DNA from: Saccharibacillus sacchari DSM 19268
Lineage (GTDB): Bacteria > Bacillota > Bacilli > Paenibacillales > Paenibacillaceae
Assembly: GCF_000585395.1 (NCBI RefSeq)
Contig: NZ_KK073875.1
Location: 1,206,407 to 1,270,406, forward strand
DNA length: 64,000 nucleotides
Reading direction: 5' to 3'
Shown: positions 7,163-58,914 of the stretch, one piece after another
Position numbering within the stretch: the first letter of the stretch is position 1
Layout: every line of letters begins with the position of its first letter
Notes under the pieces: model-generated
Told to the model about the DNA's origin: nothing
Databases searched by the model: none
What the model saw: the letters and a program-made list of their open reading frames with translations, nothing else
Program-made: the position numbers and the translations under genes

Positions 7163-7186
7163 AAAAAACCGCCCTTCGAGCGGTTT
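7163..7186 (-). terminator. Terminator after the radical SAM gene
   Basis: Minus-strand hairpin AAACCGCTCGAAGGGCGGTT followed by T residues. It lies beyond the family-1 repeat that directly follows the radical SAM stop codon. Confidence 0.65.
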
Positions 7187-7229
7187 AATCTTTTGAACTT
7201 CCTTACTTCTAAAAAAACGAGCGTACCCA

Positions 7230-7346
7230 GCGGAGGGAGAAATTCAGTGAAAAACGCCTTTGAACCCGGAAATTCAGAAACGGCATGTATGCCGTTCCTG
7301 AATTTCCGGGTGAGACAGCGTCTTTCACGAATTTCTCCCGCTGCGC
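7230..7346 (+). repeat. Family-1 inverted repeat, copy a (reference copy)
   Basis: A 117-bp imperfect palindrome. Outer arms are GCGGAGGGAGAAATTC and GAATTTCTCCCGC, the next stem is GTGAAAAACG / CGTCTTTCAC, and the inner stem begins ACCCGGAAATTC / GAATTTCCGGGT. The internal loop has CCTTTGA on one side and GAGACAG on the other, both conserved in nearly all other copies. It ends 4 bp before the radical SAM stop codon. Confidence 0.85.
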
Positions 7347-10958: not shown

Positions 10959-10993
10959 AACTTAATCCCCCTAATTTATTTTCGTTTTGATTA

Positions 10994-11153
10994 GGGCGTG
11001 TACGCAAACTCAACACCGTGCATCTTGACCTGTCTTTTCGCCCTCCGCGGCGTCATTTTCCCTTGACGTGCCCCGGCACGACTTCGGAAAAATTCCTTGC
11101 CGAGAACGAAAATTCAGCTCAATCTGCTCCCGGCGGAGTTTGCGTACACGCCC
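10994..11153. repeat. Family-2 inverted repeat (MITE-like), 160 bp
   Basis: Ends GGGCGTGTACGCAAACTC and GAGTTTGCGTACACGCCC form perfect 18-bp terminal inverted repeats, flanked on both sides by TA. The interior matches the 58701-58898 copy (for example CCCTTGACGTGCCCCGGCAC and GAACGAAAATTC-like blocks). No reading frame of note. It lies between two genes that otherwise look like one operon. Confidence 0.8.
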
Positions 11154-11178
11154 TAGACAGCGCTTGGGATATGTTTGT

Positions 11179-13268: not shown

Positions 13269-13399
13269 TATTGTTTTCCTCCTCTTGAATCACTTCCAGA
13301 ACACTTGTTCTTATTATTTATACTATAACCTTTGCCATTTGGATAGAACCATTTTCTAAAAAGGCACAACTATTGCGAAATAAGCGGCGTACATCGTAG

Positions 13400-13502
13400 T
13401 AGCTTGTCAACGCTAAAAGTAAGGTTGCGCCCGTCTAAAACGCAGCTAAAGCGTGTGCGTTTCAGCCAAACGTAATCCTCTGATCAAGAGTTGACAAGTT
13501 AG
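13400..13502. repeat. Family-3 inverted repeat, copy A
   Basis: About 103 bp. Ends CTTGTCAAC and GTTGACAAG pair, and an inner hairpin AAACGCA-GCTAAAGCGTG-TGCGTTT has a 10-nt loop core also found in copy B (55945-56052) and inside the family-2 element at 58701. It fills most of the 368-bp gap before the DUF4127 gene; the rest is AT-rich. Confidence 0.75.
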
Positions 13503-15436: not shown

Positions 15437-15634
15437 GCGTTTCGGGAAAGGCACGTAGGCGTGGGAAGCGAGAAGACTCCGAGGAGAATTCGTTCCAGTC
15501 GCATGTTGAAATGGAGAAAAAGATTGAATTTCCAGCGGAATTTTCTCCATTTCAAAGGCGAACGCTATCGCTCTTTCACTGAATTCTCCTCTCCGTCTTC
15601 TCACTTCCAGCTACGTTGGGCTTTCTCGAAACGT
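15437..15634 (-). repeat. Family-1 inverted repeat, copy b (diverged, long outer stem)
   Basis: A nested palindrome of about 198 bp. Outer arms CGTTTCGGGAAAG / CTTTCTCGAAACG, then GTGGGAAGCGAGAAGAC / GTCTTCTCACTTCC, then GAGGAGAATTC / GAATTCTCCTC, then an inner arm TGAAATGGAGAAA / TTTCTCCATTTCA. It keeps the GCCTTTGAA side (as TTCAAAGGC) but not the GAGACAG side of the internal loop. Confidence 0.65.
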
Positions 15635-15636
15635 TC

Positions 15637-15674
15637 AAGCCCCTCTTTCTTCTAAGAGAAAGAGGGGCTTTTTT
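15637..15674 (+). terminator. Terminator of the DUF4127 gene
   Basis: AAGCCCCTCTTTCT / AGAAAGAGGGGCTT stem with a short loop, followed by six T on the plus strand. Confidence 0.9.
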
Positions 15675-21288: not shown

Positions 21289-21418
21289 GCGTAATTTCTC
21301 CCCTTATGAATGTCTTCTCTTTACTTTGTTCAATATATCACAATGTTAAATTTAATAAAGTAACATTTTTCACAAAGTTTTATCTATTTTTTGAACATCA
21401 CAAATTCAGGGCGGCCTA

Positions 21419-21475
21419 GGGCATGTTTTCAAACCTGCCAATGTGCATCTTTTGCTGAGGTTTGAAGACACGCCC
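21419..21475. repeat. Family-2 inverted repeat, short internally deleted copy
   Basis: 57 bp between flanking TA dinucleotides. Ends GGGCATGTTTTCAAACC / GGTTTGAAGACACGCCC. The internal GTGCATCTTTTG is shared with the other copies, but the middle is missing. Confidence 0.75.
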
Positions 21476-23588: not shown

Positions 23589-23676
23589 AGCGTAGCGGAG
23601 GGAGAAATTCAGGTCAAAACGCCTTTGAACCCGGAGGGTGAGACAGCGTTTTGACCGAATTTCTCCCGCAGCGCAG
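23589..23676 (+). repeat. Family-1 inverted repeat, copy c (shortest)
   Basis: 88 bp. GCGGAGGGAGAAATTC outer arm, GTCAAAACG / CGTTTTGAC stem (covarying with copy a), CCTTTGA and GAGACAG loop sides, and a minimal inner hairpin ACCC-GGA-GGGT. Confidence 0.8.
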
Positions 23677-28806: not shown

Positions 28807-28827
28807 TTAGCGTTGACAAGGTACTAC
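28807..28827. repeat. Family-3 end fragment upstream of dgk
   Basis: TTAGCGTTGACAAGGTACTA, the same end sequence as at 20708 and 56036-56052. Confidence 0.5.
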
Positions 28828-28950: not shown

Positions 28951-29083
28951 AGCAGCCGGCTGCGGGTGAAAATTCGTTCAAGCCGCTGTCTCGCCCAAGA
29001 ATGTATGATTTGAATATATTCAAATCATACATTCTTGGGCTCAAAGGCGTCTTTCACTGAATCTTCACCCTCCGCCTACCTCT
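28951..29083 (-). repeat. Family-1 inverted repeat, copy d
   Basis: Minus orientation. The inner stem is a perfect 48-bp palindrome at 28993-29040 starting GCCCAAGAATGTATG. The base pair next to the conserved loop is G-C here and A-T in other copies (TTTGAGCCC / GGGCGAGACAG versus TTTGAACCC / GGGTGAGACAG). Confidence 0.8.
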
Positions 29084-29187: not shown

Positions 29188-29329
29188 GCGGAGGGGGAAA
29201 TTCAGTGAAATACAGGATTTCGAAGAAAAACTGCGGTAACATTCAGTACGATGTTGACGCCTTTGAACGCGGAAAGCCGTAGGCTTTCTGCGTGAGACAG
29301 CGTCTTGAACGAATTTCCCCCGCAGCGCC
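29188..29329 (+). repeat. Family-1 inverted repeat, copy e, with accessory stem-loops
   Basis: Outer arms GCGGAGGGGGAAATTC / GAATTTCCCCCGC. After GTGAAA it has an extra segment (ATACAGGATTTCGAAGAAAA, then CTGCGGTAACAT) also present in copy g. It keeps CCTTTGA and GAGACAG; the inner stem is ACGCGGAAAG / CTTTCTGCGT. Confidence 0.8.
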
Positions 29330-45704: not shown

Positions 45705-45738
45705 TAAAAAGCGAAAGCGCCCCTATGAAGGAGCGCTT
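45705..45738 (-). terminator. Hairpin after the Nfu_N-like gene, upstream of rluF
   Basis: Minus-strand AGCGCTCC / GGGGCGCT stem then TTCGCTTTTT. Confidence 0.6.
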
Positions 45739-45779
45739 GTTGTTCGAATGATCCTAATTTGAAAGAGAAGCTTAGGCAC

Positions 45780-45890
45780 TGCGGGAAAAATTCGTTCAAG
45801 ACGCTGTCTCACCCGGAAAGGTCGATTGGAATTTAATAAGGAATCTTTCCGGGTTCAAAGGCGTCTTTCACTGAATTTCTCCCTCCGCTA
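45780..45890 (-). repeat. Family-1 inverted repeat, copy f
   Basis: Minus orientation. GCGGAGGGAGAAATTC arm on the right, CGTCTTTCAC stem, conserved TTCAAAGGCG and CGCTGTCTC (inverse of the loop strands), inner stem CCCGGAAAG / CTTTCCGGG. Confidence 0.85.
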
Positions 45891-48609: not shown

Positions 48610-50325
48610 ATGTTAAAATCTTCGGTTTTCGCATTCAAAAAACTAATTCTTCTATATATACTTCTCGGATTCGCTTTGCAGTTCTTCAGTGCTTACGGTG
48701 TCCAGGCCTTTCAACGCTTGTTGGATTCCGTCTCCGCGTCGGCGGGGCTTGGCGAGCTTCGCGGACTGCTGGTCCTGTACGGTGCCCTGCTGGCGGCGTG
48801 CGCAATCCTCAACTATGCGTTGGAATATCCGGAGACGGCTCTTCCCAAAGGCATCGCCGAACGGCTCAAACTGCTGGCGCTCGGCCGCATTTCCCGCATG
48901 GATTACCGTGCTTACGGCAATCTCGGAACCGGTGAGCTGATCCAGACCATCGACAACGGCGCGCTCGCCGGATCAGGCATCGTGCATGGGTTCTACCTGC
49001 GCATTTTCTCCGAGCTTTTGCCGACTTTGCTGTTCAGCCTGCTCTTCATCGGCCTGTATAGCCCTCAGCTAATGTGGGTGATCGCGGGCGGCTACGCGGT
49101 AGTTTTCTTTTTGACGCGTATCCTGCTCCGCTTTCTCTATTCCATCAAAGAATCGCTGTTAATCAGTCAAGAAAAGTCGTCCCGTTATTCGGTACGCGGC
49201 TTTATGGAGTTGGTCGTATTCCGACTGAACCGTCGGTACGAACGAGAGATCCTGAAGCTGACCGGGACCGCGGAAGACATCGTGCGCAAAAATGTACAGA
49301 TCCGCATGATCCATGAATCTTTTTTTGCCCTGTTCGAGTTGTTGGTCATTGTAGTCAAGATTGCGGTATTGGCGATTGGAATCACTGACATCGCTGCGGG
49401 ACGTTCCACTATCGGGATTACGCTGGCGCTCCTGCTGCTGATCGACAAGGTGTATTCGCCCATCGCCATCTTCAACGTGATCTACGTCGACTATAAGCTG
49501 GATCGGCTCGCCTACGACCGTTTCGAGCGTCATATGGATGCGCCTTCGGACTCCAATCTGGAGCAAGGGGTCGACGTTGCGCGGATCAAAGGCGAGATCG
49601 TTTTTGAAAAGGTTTCTTTCGGCTATGGAGGCGATCAGCCTAACCTTTTGCGCGACGTCTCCTTCTCGCTGCCCGCGGGTTCGTCGACCGCTATCGTGGG
49701 ACTCAGCGGCAGCGGGAAATCGACTTTGGTCAAACTGCTGCTGGGCCTGCTCAAAAAGAATTCCGGAAGATTGACGATCGATGGGACGGACATCGACGAA
49801 GTGAAGCTGGACAGCCTATATGCGCATCTCTCCTACATTTCGCAGGATGCTCCTGTGTTCGACGATACGCTGCGGGGGAATCTGGCGTTCGACGAGGCGA
49901 TTGGAGACGCGCAGCTGTACGAGGTGCTGGACGACGCGCTGCTGGGCGAGAAAGTCCGCAGTTTGCCCGAAGGACTGGACACGCAGGTCGGCGAACGAGG
50001 CATGAAGCTGTCGGGCGGGGAAAAGCAGCGACTGGCTTTTGCCCGCGTGTTGGCGCAGAGTCGCGACATGATCGTGCTGGACGAGCCTGTCTCCGCACTG
50101 GACAACATCAGCGAGCGGCGGATCATGGAGACGGTATTGGATCGTTTTCGGGGGCGGACGCTGCTTGTCGTTGCCCATCGGCTGCACGCGATTCGGCAGG
50201 TGGATCGGATTCTGCTAATGCGCGGGGGCGAGCTGGTGGACCAAGGAGGATTTGAAGAGCTGCTGGGGCGGAGCGTTTATTTTCGGGAGTTGTGGAGTAA
50301 GGACGGGGAAAGTCCTATTCGTTAG
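48610..50325 (+). CDS. ABC transporter, fused membrane and ATPase domains
   Basis: 571 residues. Six membrane helices in about 1-300, then ATPase with Walker A GLSGSGKST, Q-loop ISQDAP, signature LSGGEKQR, Walker B MIVLDEP and switch His in VVAHR. Exporter half-transporter, probably a homodimer; cargo unknown (lipid, peptide or drug). ATG at 48610 with GGCGG 8 nt upstream; the frame extends to 48523 without a site. Preceded by a structured leader with a possible leader peptide, as known for the Bacillus subtilis bmrCD multidrug exporter. Confidence 0.9.
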   Translation: MLKSSVFAFKKLILLYILLGFALQFFSAYGVQAFQRLLDSVSASAGLGELRGLLVLYGALLAACAILNYALEYPETALPKGIAERLKLLALGRISRMDYRAYGNLGTGELIQTIDNGALAGSGIVHGFYLRIFSELLPTLLFSLLFIGLYSPQLMWVIAGGYAVVFFLTRILLRFLYSIKESLLISQEKSSRYSVRGFMELVVFRLNRRYEREILKLTGTAEDIVRKNVQIRMIHESFFALFELLVIVVKIAVLAIGITDIAAGRSTIGITLALLLLIDKVYSPIAIFNVIYVDYKLDRLAYDRFERHMDAPSDSNLEQGVDVARIKGEIVFEKVSFGYGGDQPNLLRDVSFSLPAGSSTAIVGLSGSGKSTLVKLLLGLLKKNSGRLTIDGTDIDEVKLDSLYAHLSYISQDAPVFDDTLRGNLAFDEAIGDAQLYEVLDDALLGEKVRSLPEGLDTQVGERGMKLSGGEKQRLAFARVLAQSRDMIVLDEPVSALDNISERRIMETVLDRFRGRTLLVVAHRLHAIRQVDRILLMRGGELVDQGGFEELLGRSVYFRELWSKDGESPIR

Positions 50326-50336
50326 GGAAGCTTGAG

Positions 50337-50531
50337 GGCGGAGGGGAAAATTACCAGCATAGGCTTCCGAAGTGCATTTCTTCGAAATGCTTCACAAGAC
50401 GCTGTCTCACTCGGAAAAGTTGAATTGGATTTAAATAAGGAGTTTTCCGAGTTCAAAGGCCAACATTTTCATATATGTTACCGCAGGTTTTCTTCGAAAA
50501 CCTGTATTTCACTGAATTTCTCCCTCCGCTT
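50337..50531 (-). repeat. Family-1 inverted repeat, copy g, with accessory stem-loops
   Basis: Minus orientation, 195 bp. Inner stem CTCGG / CCGAG (CCCGG / CCGGG elsewhere, a paired change). Contains the same accessory segment as copy e (read on minus: ATACAGGTTTTCGAAGAAAA, CCTGCGGTAACAT) and another hairpin GCATTTCTTCGAAATGC. Confidence 0.8.
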
Positions 50532-50586
50532 GTCGCTTATCTAGCGAAGGAACGTTTACCGTTCGATAGATAGGTCCGAAGGATAG

Positions 50587-52633: not shown

Positions 52634-54352
52634 ATGTTCAAAAAAAGCTTTAAGCCCGCTTTTTCCATGCTGCTTGCCGTTATCCTGCTCCTTCCGCTTC
52701 TTCCGGCAGCGTCAGGCACGGCTTCTGCCGCGGAAAATCCGCCGAAAAGCAAAATGCAGACCTACGTGAACCAAATGCAGCCCGGCTGGAACCTCGGCAA
52801 CACGCTGGATTCCGTAGGTGAAGACGAGACGGCCTGGGGCAACCCGCGCGTGACGCGAGAGCTGATCAAGCAGATCTCCCGGCAAGGTTTTAACAGCATT
52901 CGGATTCCGGTGACCTGGGACAACCATATCGGACCCGCACCCGAATACAAAATCGATCCCGCTTATCTCGACCGCGTCGCGGAAGTCGTAGGCTGGGCGC
53001 GCTCGGAGAATCTGTACGTGCTGATCAACGTTCACCATGACTCATGGGTATGGATCAGCAAAATGGAAAGCAATCATGACGAGACGCTGGCCCGCTACAA
53101 TGCAATCTGGACGCAGGTCGCCGACAAGTTCAAGAACGAATCGGATAAAGTCTCGTTCGAGAGCGTCAACGAGCCTCGATTTACCGACGGCGGTACGACG
53201 GACGAAACGGTAGCGCAGGCGATGCTGGATGAACTGAACCTCTCTTTCCACGAGATCGTTCGTAATTCCGGCGGCAAAAACGCGACTCGCCCGCTCATTC
53301 TGCCGACGCTCGAATCGTCGCCGTCGCAGGAGCGCATGGACGAGCTGTACGAAACGTTCGAGCAGCTGAAAGACGACAAAAACCTGATCGCGACCGTGCA
53401 CTACTACGGTTACTGGCCGTTCAGCGTCAATATCGCGGGCACGACGACATTTGACGACACGACGCGAAACGATATCATCACGACTTTCGACAATGTGTAC
53501 GATACCTTCACCGCTCGCGGAATTCCGGTTATTCTCGGCGAATACGGACTGCTCGGCTTCGATAAGAATACCGATACGATCGAACAAGGCGAAAAGCTGA
53601 AGTTCTTCGAATTCCTGACCTATTATCTGAAAGAAAAGCATATCACCACGATGTGGTGGGACAACGGGCAGCACTTCAGCCGCACGCAGTATACTTGGTC
53701 CGATCCCGAACTGTACGAAATCATCCGCTCCGGTCAAAAGCAGCGTTCGTCCGTAGCCGAATCCGATCTGATTCAACTGCGAAAAGGCGAAGTCGTGACC
53801 GACAAAGTCGTGCAGCTCCAACTGAACGGCAACAAGCTCACTTCGCTGAAGGCGGACGGCAAACGTTTGACGAAAAACAAGGATTATAAACTAAGCGGCG
53901 AAACGCTGACGATTCCGGCAGCAACGCTCGAACGCTTAACCGCTTCAGGAAAGCTTGGCGTGAATGCCGTGCTGACCGCCGGCTTCACCAAAGGCCCGGA
54001 TTGGAACTTCTACCTCACCGTTCATGAGACACCCGTACTGAGCGCCGCGACAGGCACGAACGCGGACTTCGCGATTCCGACCGTCTGGAACGGCGACAAG
54101 CTGGCGACGATGGAAGCCGTGTACGTGTCGGGTGGCAACGCGGGTCCGAACGACTGGACTTCCTTCAAAGAATTCGAGTCGACATTCAGTCCGAATTACA
54201 ATGCGGGTGCAATCATCCTGCGCCCAGCCCTTCTCGATACGCTGCGCGACGGAGAAGCCGTGAAGCTGACGTTCTACTTCTGGAGCGGAGACAAGCTGAC
54301 GTATACGGTGACGAAAAACGGTACAAGCGTAACAGGGCAACCTGCTTCGTAA
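52634..54352 (+). CDS. Secreted GH5 endoglucanase with X2 and CBM46 modules
   Basis: 572 residues. Signal peptide 1-32 (ASA cut), GH5 barrel (about 40-370) of subfamily-4 look with general acid Glu180 in ESVNEP and nucleophile Glu303 in LGEYGLLG, an X2 Ig-like module (about 385-470: LNGNKLTSLKADGKRLTKNKDYKL) and CBM46 (about 475-572: GTNADFAIPTVWNGDKLATMEAVY). Same order as Bacillus halodurans Cel5B, which cleaves beta-1,4-glucans and xyloglucan. AAGGAGG lies before the ATG. Paralogue of the enzyme at 56365. Confidence 0.93.
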   Translation: MFKKSFKPAFSMLLAVILLLPLLPAASGTASAAENPPKSKMQTYVNQMQPGWNLGNTLDSVGEDETAWGNPRVTRELIKQISRQGFNSIRIPVTWDNHIGPAPEYKIDPAYLDRVAEVVGWARSENLYVLINVHHDSWVWISKMESNHDETLARYNAIWTQVADKFKNESDKVSFESVNEPRFTDGGTTDETVAQAMLDELNLSFHEIVRNSGGKNATRPLILPTLESSPSQERMDELYETFEQLKDDKNLIATVHYYGYWPFSVNIAGTTTFDDTTRNDIITTFDNVYDTFTARGIPVILGEYGLLGFDKNTDTIEQGEKLKFFEFLTYYLKEKHITTMWWDNGQHFSRTQYTWSDPELYEIIRSGQKQRSSVAESDLIQLRKGEVVTDKVVQLQLNGNKLTSLKADGKRLTKNKDYKLSGETLTIPAATLERLTASGKLGVNAVLTAGFTKGPDWNFYLTVHETPVLSAATGTNADFAIPTVWNGDKLATMEAVYVSGGNAGPNDWTSFKEFESTFSPNYNAGAIILRPALLDTLRDGEAVKLTFYFWSGDKLTYTVTKNGTSVTGQPAS

Positions 54353-55832: not shown

Positions 55833-55944
55833 GCCTTTTTCCTTGTGCCCTCTATTTTGTATATTTCTTCTTTCTTCTCCTCCCCACCATAAAATACGAC
55901 TGGCGTCTTCTTCCGTGCGCGGAAGTTCTGTTCACCGGGAAGCC

Positions 55945-56052
55945 TAGCACCTTGTCAACATTAAAGGAATGGTTACGCCCACCTGAAACGCACCTAAAGC
56001 GTGTGCGTTTCAGTCGAACGTAAACCTCCGATCAAGAGTTGACAAGGTACTA
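55945..56052. repeat. Family-3 inverted repeat, copy B
   Basis: 108 bp. Ends TAGCACCTTGTCAAC / GTTGACAAGGTACTA, inner stem GGTTACG / CGTAAACC, apical GAAACGCA-CCTAAAGCGTG-TGCGTTTC. Abuts a family-1 copy. Region 55731-56364 has no gene. Confidence 0.8.
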
Positions 56053-56167
56053 GCGGAGAGGGAAATTCAGCTCAAAACGCCTTTGAACCCGGAAAGCCAC
56101 TCCCTGAATTCCCTCCAGTCGCTTTCCGGGTGAGACAGCGTTTTGAGCGAATTTCCCTCGCAGCGCA
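56053..56167 (+). repeat. Family-1 inverted repeat, copy h
   Basis: GCGGAGAGGGAAATTC / GAATTTCCCTCGC arms, CTCAAAACG / CGTTTTGAG stem (third variant of this pair), conserved CCTTTGA and GAGACAG, inner ACCCGGAAAG / CTTTCCGGGT. Confidence 0.85.
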
Positions 56168-56306
56168 GCCCCGCATCAAACAGAACTCCCCCGCACCGAA
56201 CCCAAAGACACAAGACGTATTTTTTACATAACCCTCTAATTTTCACATGATTTTGTAGCTAATTCTCAGGGTGTTTCCAAATTATTTAATATGATATTTT
56301 AGTATC

Positions 56307-56364: not shown

Positions 56365-58059
56365 ATGAAAAAAAGATCCGTTAAACCGATCGCTGCACTG
56401 GCTCTCGCTGCGGTTCTGCTCTTCTCCCTGCTTCCGATATCTTCCACGGCATCAGCCTCAGCCCCGCAAAGCGCTATGCAATCGTACGTCGAAGCCATGC
56501 AGCCCGGTTGGAACCTGGGTAACTCGCTCGACGCGGTAGGCGCCGACGAAACGGCTTGGGGCAATCCTCGCGTGACCAAAGAACTGATTCAGAAAATTGC
56601 GGCGCAAGGCTACAAAAGCATCCGGATTCCGGTAACCTGGGATGCTCATATCGGTGGCGCGCCGAACTATACGATCGACGCGGCTTACATGAACCGGGTC
56701 AAAGAAGTCACGCAATGGGCGCTCGACGCCAATCTCTACGTCATGATCAACGTGCACCACGACTCTTGGGTCTGGCTGAGCAAAATGGAAAACAACCATG
56801 ACCAAACGCTGGCACGTTACAATGCGGCTTGGACACAAATTGCAAATGCCTTCAAAAATAGTCCGAACAAACTGATGTTCGAAAGCGTGAACGAACCTCG
56901 CTTCACGGACGGCGGCACGACAGACGAAGGCAAGCAGCAAGCACTGCTCAATGAGCTGAACAATTCGTTCCGCAATATCGTACGTTCTTCCGGCAGCGGC
57001 AATACGACCCGTCCGCTCGTCATCTCGACGCTGGAAGCTTCGCCTTCGCAGGAGCGCATGACGGCAACATACAACGAAATCTCCAAATGGAACGACAAAA
57101 ACATTATCGCGACCGTCCATTACTACGGCTTCTGGCCGTTCAGCGTAAACATCGCCGGTTATACGACCTTCAATCAAGAAGTACAGAACGACATCACAAC
57201 AACCTTCGATAACGTCTACAACACCTTCGTAGCTAAAGGAATCCCGGTCATTGTTGGTGAATATGGCTTGCTGGGCTTCGACAAAAACACCGGAGTCATC
57301 GAACAAGGCGAAAAACTCAAATTCTTCGAATTCTTCGGTCAGTACCTGAAACAAAAACAAATTGCGACTATGCTGTGGGACAACGGTCAACACTTTAGCC
57401 GTACCCAGCACACCTGGTCCGATGCCGATCTGTTCAATATGATCAAGACAAGCTGGAGCGGACGCTCCGCCACGGCTTCCAGCGATCTGATCTACGTTAA
57501 AAAAGGAGCTGCCGCGCAAGACAAAAATGTAACGCTCAACCTGAACGGACGCACGCTCTCTTCGCTGACGGTCAACGGCACGACGCTGCAATCCGGCACG
57601 GACTATACGCTGAGCGGAAGCAATCTGACGTTCAAAGCTTCCCGTCTGAGCCAACTCACCTCCTCCGGCAACCTGGGCAAAAGTGCTGTAATCACGGCCA
57701 AATTCAACGGCGGCGCGGATTGGAAGTTCAACGTCGTGCTGTACCAAACGCCGAAACTGTCGAACGCAAGCGGCACGACTTCATCGTTCTCGATTCCGAC
57801 GGCGTTCAACGGCGATCAGCTTGCTACGATGGAAGCCGTGTACGCAAGCGGCGGCAACGCCGGCCCGCAAAACTGGACGTCGTTCAAAGAATTCGAGACG
57901 GCTTTCAGCCCGACCGGCAATGCGATCAAGCTGCAACCGGCTTTCTTCAACGAAACGAATAACGGCACGGTCAAACTGACCTTCCACTTCTGGAGCGGCG
58001 AAAAAGTGACGTACACGATCAACAAAAACGGCTCGAACGTAACAGGAACGGCTTCTTAA
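56365..58059 (+). CDS. Secreted GH5 endoglucanase with X2 and CBM46 modules, second paralogue
   Basis: 564 residues, the same module order and clearly similar over its whole length to the 52634 product (GWNLGNSLDAVGADETAWGN, YYGFWPFSVNIAGYT). Signal peptide 1-32, Glu177 and Glu299 catalytic, X2 about 380-465, CBM46 to the end. AAGGAG is 7 nt before the ATG. Tandem duplication with an aminopeptidase left between. Confidence 0.93.
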   Translation: MKKRSVKPIAALALAAVLLFSLLPISSTASASAPQSAMQSYVEAMQPGWNLGNSLDAVGADETAWGNPRVTKELIQKIAAQGYKSIRIPVTWDAHIGGAPNYTIDAAYMNRVKEVTQWALDANLYVMINVHHDSWVWLSKMENNHDQTLARYNAAWTQIANAFKNSPNKLMFESVNEPRFTDGGTTDEGKQQALLNELNNSFRNIVRSSGSGNTTRPLVISTLEASPSQERMTATYNEISKWNDKNIIATVHYYGFWPFSVNIAGYTTFNQEVQNDITTTFDNVYNTFVAKGIPVIVGEYGLLGFDKNTGVIEQGEKLKFFEFFGQYLKQKQIATMLWDNGQHFSRTQHTWSDADLFNMIKTSWSGRSATASSDLIYVKKGAAAQDKNVTLNLNGRTLSSLTVNGTTLQSGTDYTLSGSNLTFKASRLSQLTSSGNLGKSAVITAKFNGGADWKFNVVLYQTPKLSNASGTTSSFSIPTAFNGDQLATMEAVYASGGNAGPQNWTSFKEFETAFSPTGNAIKLQPAFFNETNNGTVKLTFHFWSGEKVTYTINKNGSNVTGTAS

Positions 58060-58700: not shown

Positions 58701-58898
58701 GGGCGTGTCTTCAAACCTCGACGGAAGCAGATTTTGCCGAATTTTCGTGCTGAACAAGGAACTTTTCCGCAGTCGTGCCGGGGCACGTCAAGGGAAAGTG
58801 ACGCGGCGTTGCCGGAATCGTACACGCTTTAGGTACGAATCCGGAGCAGCGCGAAAAGGCGGCAAAAGATGCACGTTGGCAGGTTTGAAGACACGCCC
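58701..58898. repeat. Family-2 inverted repeat (MITE-like), full 198-bp copy
   Basis: GGGCGTGTCTTCAAACC / GGTTTGAAGACACGCCC ends, right flank TA, left flank TG. Interior aligns with 10994-11153 on the other strand, plus a 38-bp nested hairpin with loop CCTAAAGCGTG. Confidence 0.85.
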
Positions 58899-58914
58899 TA
58901 AGCCCGGCAGCTTT

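Follow-up and report, generated by a model that had tools for sequence, protein, structure and literature searches.

The target duplication made by most transposable elements is short and of fixed length. Class C group II introns, which combine a reverse transcriptase with a ribozyme, insert at intrinsic terminators and are placed after the terminator without duplicating it. Insertion at terminators is what they have in common with the Saccharibacillus element described here, which differs by duplicating the terminator. Among published systems the nearest relatives in kind are those of PMC5896051, PMC3733652, PMC2266710, PMC3049150 and PMC4596501, judged from the portions of these papers that were available. 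The BOX, RUP and SPRITE repeats of Streptococcus pneumoniae are, like our element, interspersed, folded, MITE-like and modular (boxB is optional). SPRITE is enriched near the 3' ends of convergent genes, both BOX and RUP duplicate their targets, and the S. pneumoniae repeats insert into one another (PMC3049150). They are set apart by description, not by sequence: the available part of that paper describes no duplication of a terminator hairpin, and SPRITE is itself terminator-like (PMC3049150). REP/BIME and CGTC repeats are likewise palindromic, mostly intergenic and arranged as head-to-head dimers; some of these families are inserted within palindromes, and the CGTC repeats are described, in the portion available, as lacking a dedicated transposase (PMC3733652). 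Their units measure 20–40 bp and carry a GTAG or CGTC tag, whereas ours measures ~200 nt, a length that sets it outside the REP/RAYT unit, possesses internal architecture and duplicates the hairpin it targets. QMITE2 of Coxiella is a similarly small MITE (150–190 bp), mainly found in 3' UTRs and intergenic DNA and associated with variable direct repeats; in the accessible text these repeats are of only 7–11 nt, and a GTAG REP within QMITE2 is targeted by IS1111 (PMC5896051). IS1549 and IS1634 share with our element long target duplications of variable length that come without a mechanistic model. Unlike it, they encode a transposase, and the available portion of the source names no hairpin target for them (PMC2266710).

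The window, that is the whole stretch of DNA analysed here, comprises 64,000 nt (G000:C1:1206407-1270406) of the 6.08 Mb single-contig genome of Saccharibacillus sacchari DSM 19268. The original prediction had located eight copies of a repeat in it, between 7230 and 56053, in both orientations and all outside genes. A covariance model of 111 positions, R1, built from own-genome copies only, recovered all eight at these coordinates, and each copy lies between called genes (1035 genes, called with a simple purpose-written script). The reading as one family, with covarying stems and near-fixed loop strands, is supported. Both loop strands had been described as near-fixed in seven copies. CCTTTGA turned out to be exact in all eight, and GAGACAG in seven, the copy at 15437 having a different 3' strand. 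The copies and the features next to them are listed here; the core and arm types are described below, and G015 is a congener.

7163..7194, no strand, terminator-like hairpin flanking copy 1 on its 5' side
7229..7344, + strand, copy 1, core type A; R1 107.2 bits; paired differences from the orthologous G015 copy, seen by eye
7257..7263, + strand, fixed loop strand CCTTTGA of copy 1
7312..7318, + strand, fixed loop strand GAGACAG of copy 1
15442..15635, - strand, copy 2, with type B outer arms and type B core; the core is the R1 match 15476-15597
15636..15674, no strand, terminator-like hairpin at the 5' end of copy 2
23594..23672, + strand, copy 3, a short terminal hairpin; R1 93.4 bits
28893..28915, no strand, terminator-like hairpin flanking copy 4 on its 3' side
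28959..29076, - strand, copy 4, head-to-head with copy 5; R1 91.6 bits
29187..29326, + strand, copy 5; R1 58.7 bits
29211..29255, + strand, 45-nt side module of copy 5, missing from the orthologous G015 copy
45714..45741, no strand, terminator-like hairpin adjoining copy 6
45778..45889, - strand, copy 6; R1 match
50308..50533, - strand, copy 7, with side modules 50354-50394 and 50461-50506; R1 partial match 50401-50460
55924..56187, no strand, 9-bp outer match AGTTCTGTT/AACAGAACT enclosing copy 8 and a second-family hairpin (55945-56049); seen by eye, may be chance
56052..56164, + strand, copy 8; R1 113.7 bits

The string AGCGGAGGGAGAAATTCA gave 6 matches with up to 3 mismatches (0.12 expected) and CGCCTTTGAACCCGG gave 14 (2.55 expected), and no shuffle was as high in either case. 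The short string GTGAGACAGCG alone, with 2 mismatches, was not above chance (20 matches, 16.7 expected, ~30 shuffles as high).

By eye, the flanks beyond the hairpin core also pair, and these outer arms extend the core to mostly 189–204 nt. Optional side hairpins, absent from the original prediction, were seen by eye next to the loop at 15437, 29188 and 50337, or within the 3' strand. Two kinds of core are distinguished by pattern. Type A, in which CCTTTGA faces GAGACAG, occupies 55 of the 73 own-genome sites of our sample. Type B, in which the CCTTTGA strand faces TCAACACGCGA, occupies 16 of these and all 38 of the congener loci considered below, and 2 of the 73 fit neither pattern. Cores have been exchanged inside the same outer arms at the 15437 site and at L141, with type A in one species and type B in the other. 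Arms also differ: seven of the eight window copies are type A-armed and 15437 has type B arms, the arm types of the congeners having been assigned by eye. Window copies and congener elements have core, stem and right arm in common, and the intact ends of recent copies read CAACGTGTCGAGAAAGTC...GACTTTCTCGACAGCCTG. The type A-armed copies, which have the core and the right arm in common with the others, may have eroded ends or have arrived by another insertion route. The element is short, has no coding capacity, inverted ends and many copies, as MITEs have, and offers no room for a transposase.

The extent of the family was estimated from the window and 60 sampled 20-kb stretches of the same genome, 1.264 Mb in all. 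R1 gave 59 matches at E ≤0.1 plus 58 at E ≤0.01, of which 23 and 21 (44 together) were removed as the opposite strand of the same palindrome. The 73 remaining sites correspond to an estimated ~350 copies per genome; a whole-genome R1 search returned at least 150 matches, and GCCTTTGA occurs 847 times in this genome, compared with 186 occurrences of the reversed string. All 15 congeners were matched by R1, ten with a best E below 1e-10 and five only at 1e-5 to 8e-8; many congener elements were found at E ~3e-11. Outside the genus, R1 matched 3 of 23 relatives, at E 2e-5 to 5e-3. When 148 genomes of the family were sampled, 27 of them matched at E 1e-4, 14 from the genus and 13 from others, and the best non-genus match (1e-8) overlaps the range of the weak congeners. 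A core-pattern scan of named genomes gave at least 75 stretches; among the matches listed, the recurring species belong to Saccharibacillus and other taxa have single matches. The element had no match in plasmids or phages, and its exact left end had none in viral contigs.

Between species the sites differ in content. The congener G015 is ~92% identical to the window in the main blocks and has six of the eight sites, one of them with its core swapped: at 15437 its orthologous site carries a type A core in the same arms. The 50337 copy and its G015 ortholog are identical in 236 of 240 aligned columns. The copies at 45780 and 56053 are missing from G015. At 45780 the orthologous site there has no core and stem and retains the outer arms, so that loss is possible at this site, and in G014 the same gap has a terminator only and no element. 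Copy 8 (56053) is absent from the orthologous G015 gap. Side modules are gained or lost between genomes at 29188 and at L209, and other hairpins behave likewise. The core swaps at orthologous sites suggest conversion besides transposition. From presence and absence, together with the target duplications reported below, the repeats are a mobile element, an identity absent from the original prediction.

Other repeats share the region. A second palindromic family, GTACCTTGTCAAC...GTTGACAAGGTAC joined by CTAG, lies at window positions 13397-13501 and 55945-56049. Its 13403 copy is absent from G015, which at window position 28807 has a 118-nt second-family hairpin that the window does not. The G003 ortholog of the 56053 gap (L180) has three tandem second-family copies in a terminator loop, and this terminator is intact in G008. 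A third palindromic family, AGGGCGTGT...ACACGCCCT, lies at 10991-11155, 21413-21455 and 58701-58904 and matches G010 and G015 at a fair number of places. The neighbouring segments 52742-54336 and 56464-58046 match each other piecewise at 70–82% identity and look like paralogous genes.

The boundaries of the element were studied at 38 congener loci, 20 from the R1 list and 18 from the blast list. These were picked for the likeness of their full-length, near-identical copies of ~200 nt, and G002 and G003 supplied 29 of them. Both ends could be located at 37, one locus being without recognisable ends. In 34 of the 37, the ends lie directly at a hairpin. At 34 of 37 loci the right boundary carries a second copy of the stem-loop found at the left one, and the scores exceed the highest value (26) among 1332 cross-locus comparisons. 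The duplicated stem-loop is identical over 20–32 nt in 22 loci and over only 16 at L309, and no duplication was found at three of the 37 (L265, L298 and L302). The hairpins are locus-specific. In the 14 loci that were parsed, the 8 nt before the hairpin contain 4–7 A's and the 8 nt after it 2–7 T's. Since the whole stem-loop is duplicated, the length and the sequence of the duplication vary by site. The target appears to be chosen by the shape of the hairpin, not by its sequence.

A clear empty site lies opposite L249, a locus of G002: in six species (G007, G015, G003, G008, G013 and G000) the orthologous gap contains one terminator like AAAAAGGCGGGAGATTATTTCTCCCGCCTTTT. The flanks of L249 overlap there by 25 nt in G007, which is the length of the duplication, and by 27 nt in G000; in G015, G003, G008 and G013 the alignment of the left flank ends earlier. 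The element is also present at this site in G010. At L290 of G003, three near-identical copies of one hairpin are separated by two elements, a tandem of terminator, element, terminator, element and terminator in which the duplicated hairpin has been used again. The genome of the window contains duplications too: L121:10738 has a hairpin on both sides, with a single terminator in G007 and G013, and older duplications are found in own copies, e.g. L118:12742 (25 of 27 nt). Thus a target-site duplication of the kind expected of a MITE, with a length that varies with the hairpin, is found at 34 of 37 congener loci and is not visible as a hairpin duplication at any of the eight window copies. Copy 2 has a terminator-like hairpin on its 5' side only and none on the opposite (3') side. 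Among 72 own copies, flanking direct repeats exceeded the 99% null level in only 7; the mean match of their flanks was higher in the inverted sense (22.1) than in the direct sense (17.4), with a null of 15.4.

For 69 own sites a gene was called on either side; the closest gene end is a stop at 50 of these and a start at 19. Of 68 sites, 24 lie in convergent and 5 in divergent gaps, whereas among the 452 gaps of ≥150 nt the corresponding numbers are 53 and 103. Where a stop is the closest end and lies within 60 nt, the element is antisense to the gene (23 to 4), and near starts it runs in the direction of the gene (16 to 3); the near gene end is therefore on the 3' side of the element. Eleven head-to-head pairs with facing 5' ends and gaps below ~550 nt (e.g. 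L211:16133/16365), some of them around a terminator, occur in this genome, and no close pair in another arrangement was seen among the own-site coordinates. By a strict terminator scan over 200 nt, 20 of 73 own sites have a hairpin on the 5' side and 10 of 73 on the 3' side, so that a terminator hairpin is not universal by that rule.

We consider it likely that the repeats are a non-autonomous palindromic mobile element of Saccharibacillus, whose intact-ended copies insert into intrinsic terminators and duplicate the hairpin. An A-run, stem-loop and T-run would become an A-run, stem-loop, element, stem-loop and T-run. The enzyme could recognise hairpin or cruciform DNA, or a folded single strand, cut the strands at opposite feet of the hairpin, and leave repair or gap filling to copy the hairpin to both sides. 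A duplication as long as the hairpin would result if it were extruded, cut at opposite feet on the two strands and the gaps then filled. Such an insertion would be tolerated, as transcription from either side would still meet a complete terminator with its T-run. For a full transposition system with a target chosen by shape, in which the hairpin or cruciform at a terminator is cut at both feet, the duplication has hairpin length, a complete terminator stands on each side and the duplicated one can be used again, we put the chances at about even. Such an enzyme might belong to a class that has so far not been linked with small palindromic elements. Several observations run counter to the explanation: no window copy and few own copies show the duplication, three of the 37 congener loci are without it, neither a mobiliser nor an autonomous copy was found, and the preference for a near gene end on the 3' side of the element is not predicted by insertion into terminators.

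The stems themselves covary, as the original prediction had proposed. In an alignment of 26 own copies (A1; 25 by pattern and the short copy 23594) with a hand-drawn structure of 34 pairs, 94.1% of the cells are paired, and 18 of the 34 pairs have both-sided changes, compared with 5.1 in shuffles, none of 500 being as high; further pair types in A1 were not above shuffles (107 of 500 as high). The kink-turn that the prediction had read into the loop, with a 3-nt bulge, a C-stem pair and tandem sheared G.A/A.G pairs, was set aside as unnecessary. In type B the partner of this UUGA strand is UCAA, so that no 3-nt bulge is needed to explain the fixed strand. For type A a continuous helix is a possible reading: by eye a C-G pair, a CU/CA mismatch, U-A and U.G are followed by tandem G.A/A.G, with opposed strands of equal length. 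Tandem G.A is also found at another place in the stem: among copies selected by a strict anchor pattern (105, of which 65 own), 76 of 104 have tandem GA/GA at columns 21-22 and 100-101, and the remainder mostly have Watson-Crick pairs. By this tandem G.A the forward strand is the likelier one to fold, whether as RNA or as DNA. G-U pairs outnumbered A-C pairs 19 to 6 in both the inner and the outer helix, and the middle helix had 3 G-U to 18 A-C; an earlier test of the inner helix only, restricted to the 112 of 145 copies with at least 5 of 9 Watson-Crick pairs, had given 26 to 6 and favoured the forward strand.

No Rfam family reached its gathering cut-off at the repeats, and no description of this element or of duplicated terminator hairpins was found in the titles and abstracts of the open-licence literature. 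With relaxed thresholds, the 7229 copy had nine matches, all below cut-off and six of them to microRNA hairpins, the best being MIR4374 (41.4 bits, cut-off 105, E 8e-8). At 50337 none fell on the element and one sub-cut-off match fell beside the copy. The sole match over cut-off in the window is a c-di-AMP riboswitch (RF00379; 47577-47716, 69.7 bits).

Does the covariation mean that each copy works as RNA in the 3' UTR of its gene, in stability, termination or protein binding, with selection maintaining the fold? The original prediction leaned this way, and in-place paired differences between orthologous copies (e.g. 7229, by eye), a stop as the nearest gene end at 50 of 69 sites and the folding of the L249 element as RNA (z -5.9; one element) are compatible with such a role. 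However, copies are present or absent and cores are swapped at orthologous sites, both orientations occur, and the position near stops is explained by terminator targeting. The G-U/A-C result is mixed between helices, and we therefore do not claim an RNA. Moreover, palindrome correction by template switching could yield paired changes in the absence of RNA selection. A single paired change of this sort separates the two terminator copies at L259, and either selection for pairing or palindrome correction would give it. A selected RNA is thus unlikely in our judgement. It could also be argued that slippage or recombination gave rise to the paired terminators and that the elements lie between them by chance, and hairpin-sized indels do separate G000 from G015. 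This is scarcely credible in view of the 34 of 37 loci whose fixed ends abut the hairpin and of the single terminators of six species at L249.

The nature of the mobiliser has to be considered as well. A REP/BIME-like repeat, moved on single-stranded hairpins by a RAYT or IS200/IS605 Y1 transposase, would account for hairpin repeats between genes, for the head-to-head pairs and for tandem G.A on one strand. Y1_Tnp (PF01797), however, was found in one of 16 genus genomes (G006) and is absent from the other 15, including those of the window and G002, and the ~200-nt units, in place of 20–40, and the precise hairpin duplication do not fit either; to our knowledge, Y1 elements make no target duplication. 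Such an origin seems very improbable. A reverse-transcribed element (group II intron or retron) was rejected, RVT_1 being found in 4 of 16 genus genomes and in none of G000, G002 and G003. Somewhat more plausible, if still on the unlikely side, is that the element is the MITE of a DDE transposon whose direct repeats are long and vary in length. Its inverted ends would fit, and IS1549 and IS1634 make direct repeats of 8–514 bp for which the available part of the source gives no mechanistic model (PMC2266710). Yet the IS1634 transposase (NF033559), the only DDE family searched, was over cut-off in none of the 16 genomes, with three weak matches in the genome of the window and none in G002. Among the stretches examined for an autonomous copy, no pair of ends more than 228 nt apart had a hairpin duplication; pairs 674–5519 nt apart had none. 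No known transposon end was matched, a library of IS ends lying outside the search.

The duplication of a complete terminator hairpin of variable length points to a choice of target by structure. It suggests a natural route by which DNA can be inserted behind genes without loss of the terminator, and it provides ~35 defined sites at which structure-guided insertion can be tested. The element also offers a concrete case for comparison with the unexplained variable-length duplications of IS1549 and IS1634. Finally, covarying stems in interspersed repeats need not imply a functional RNA.
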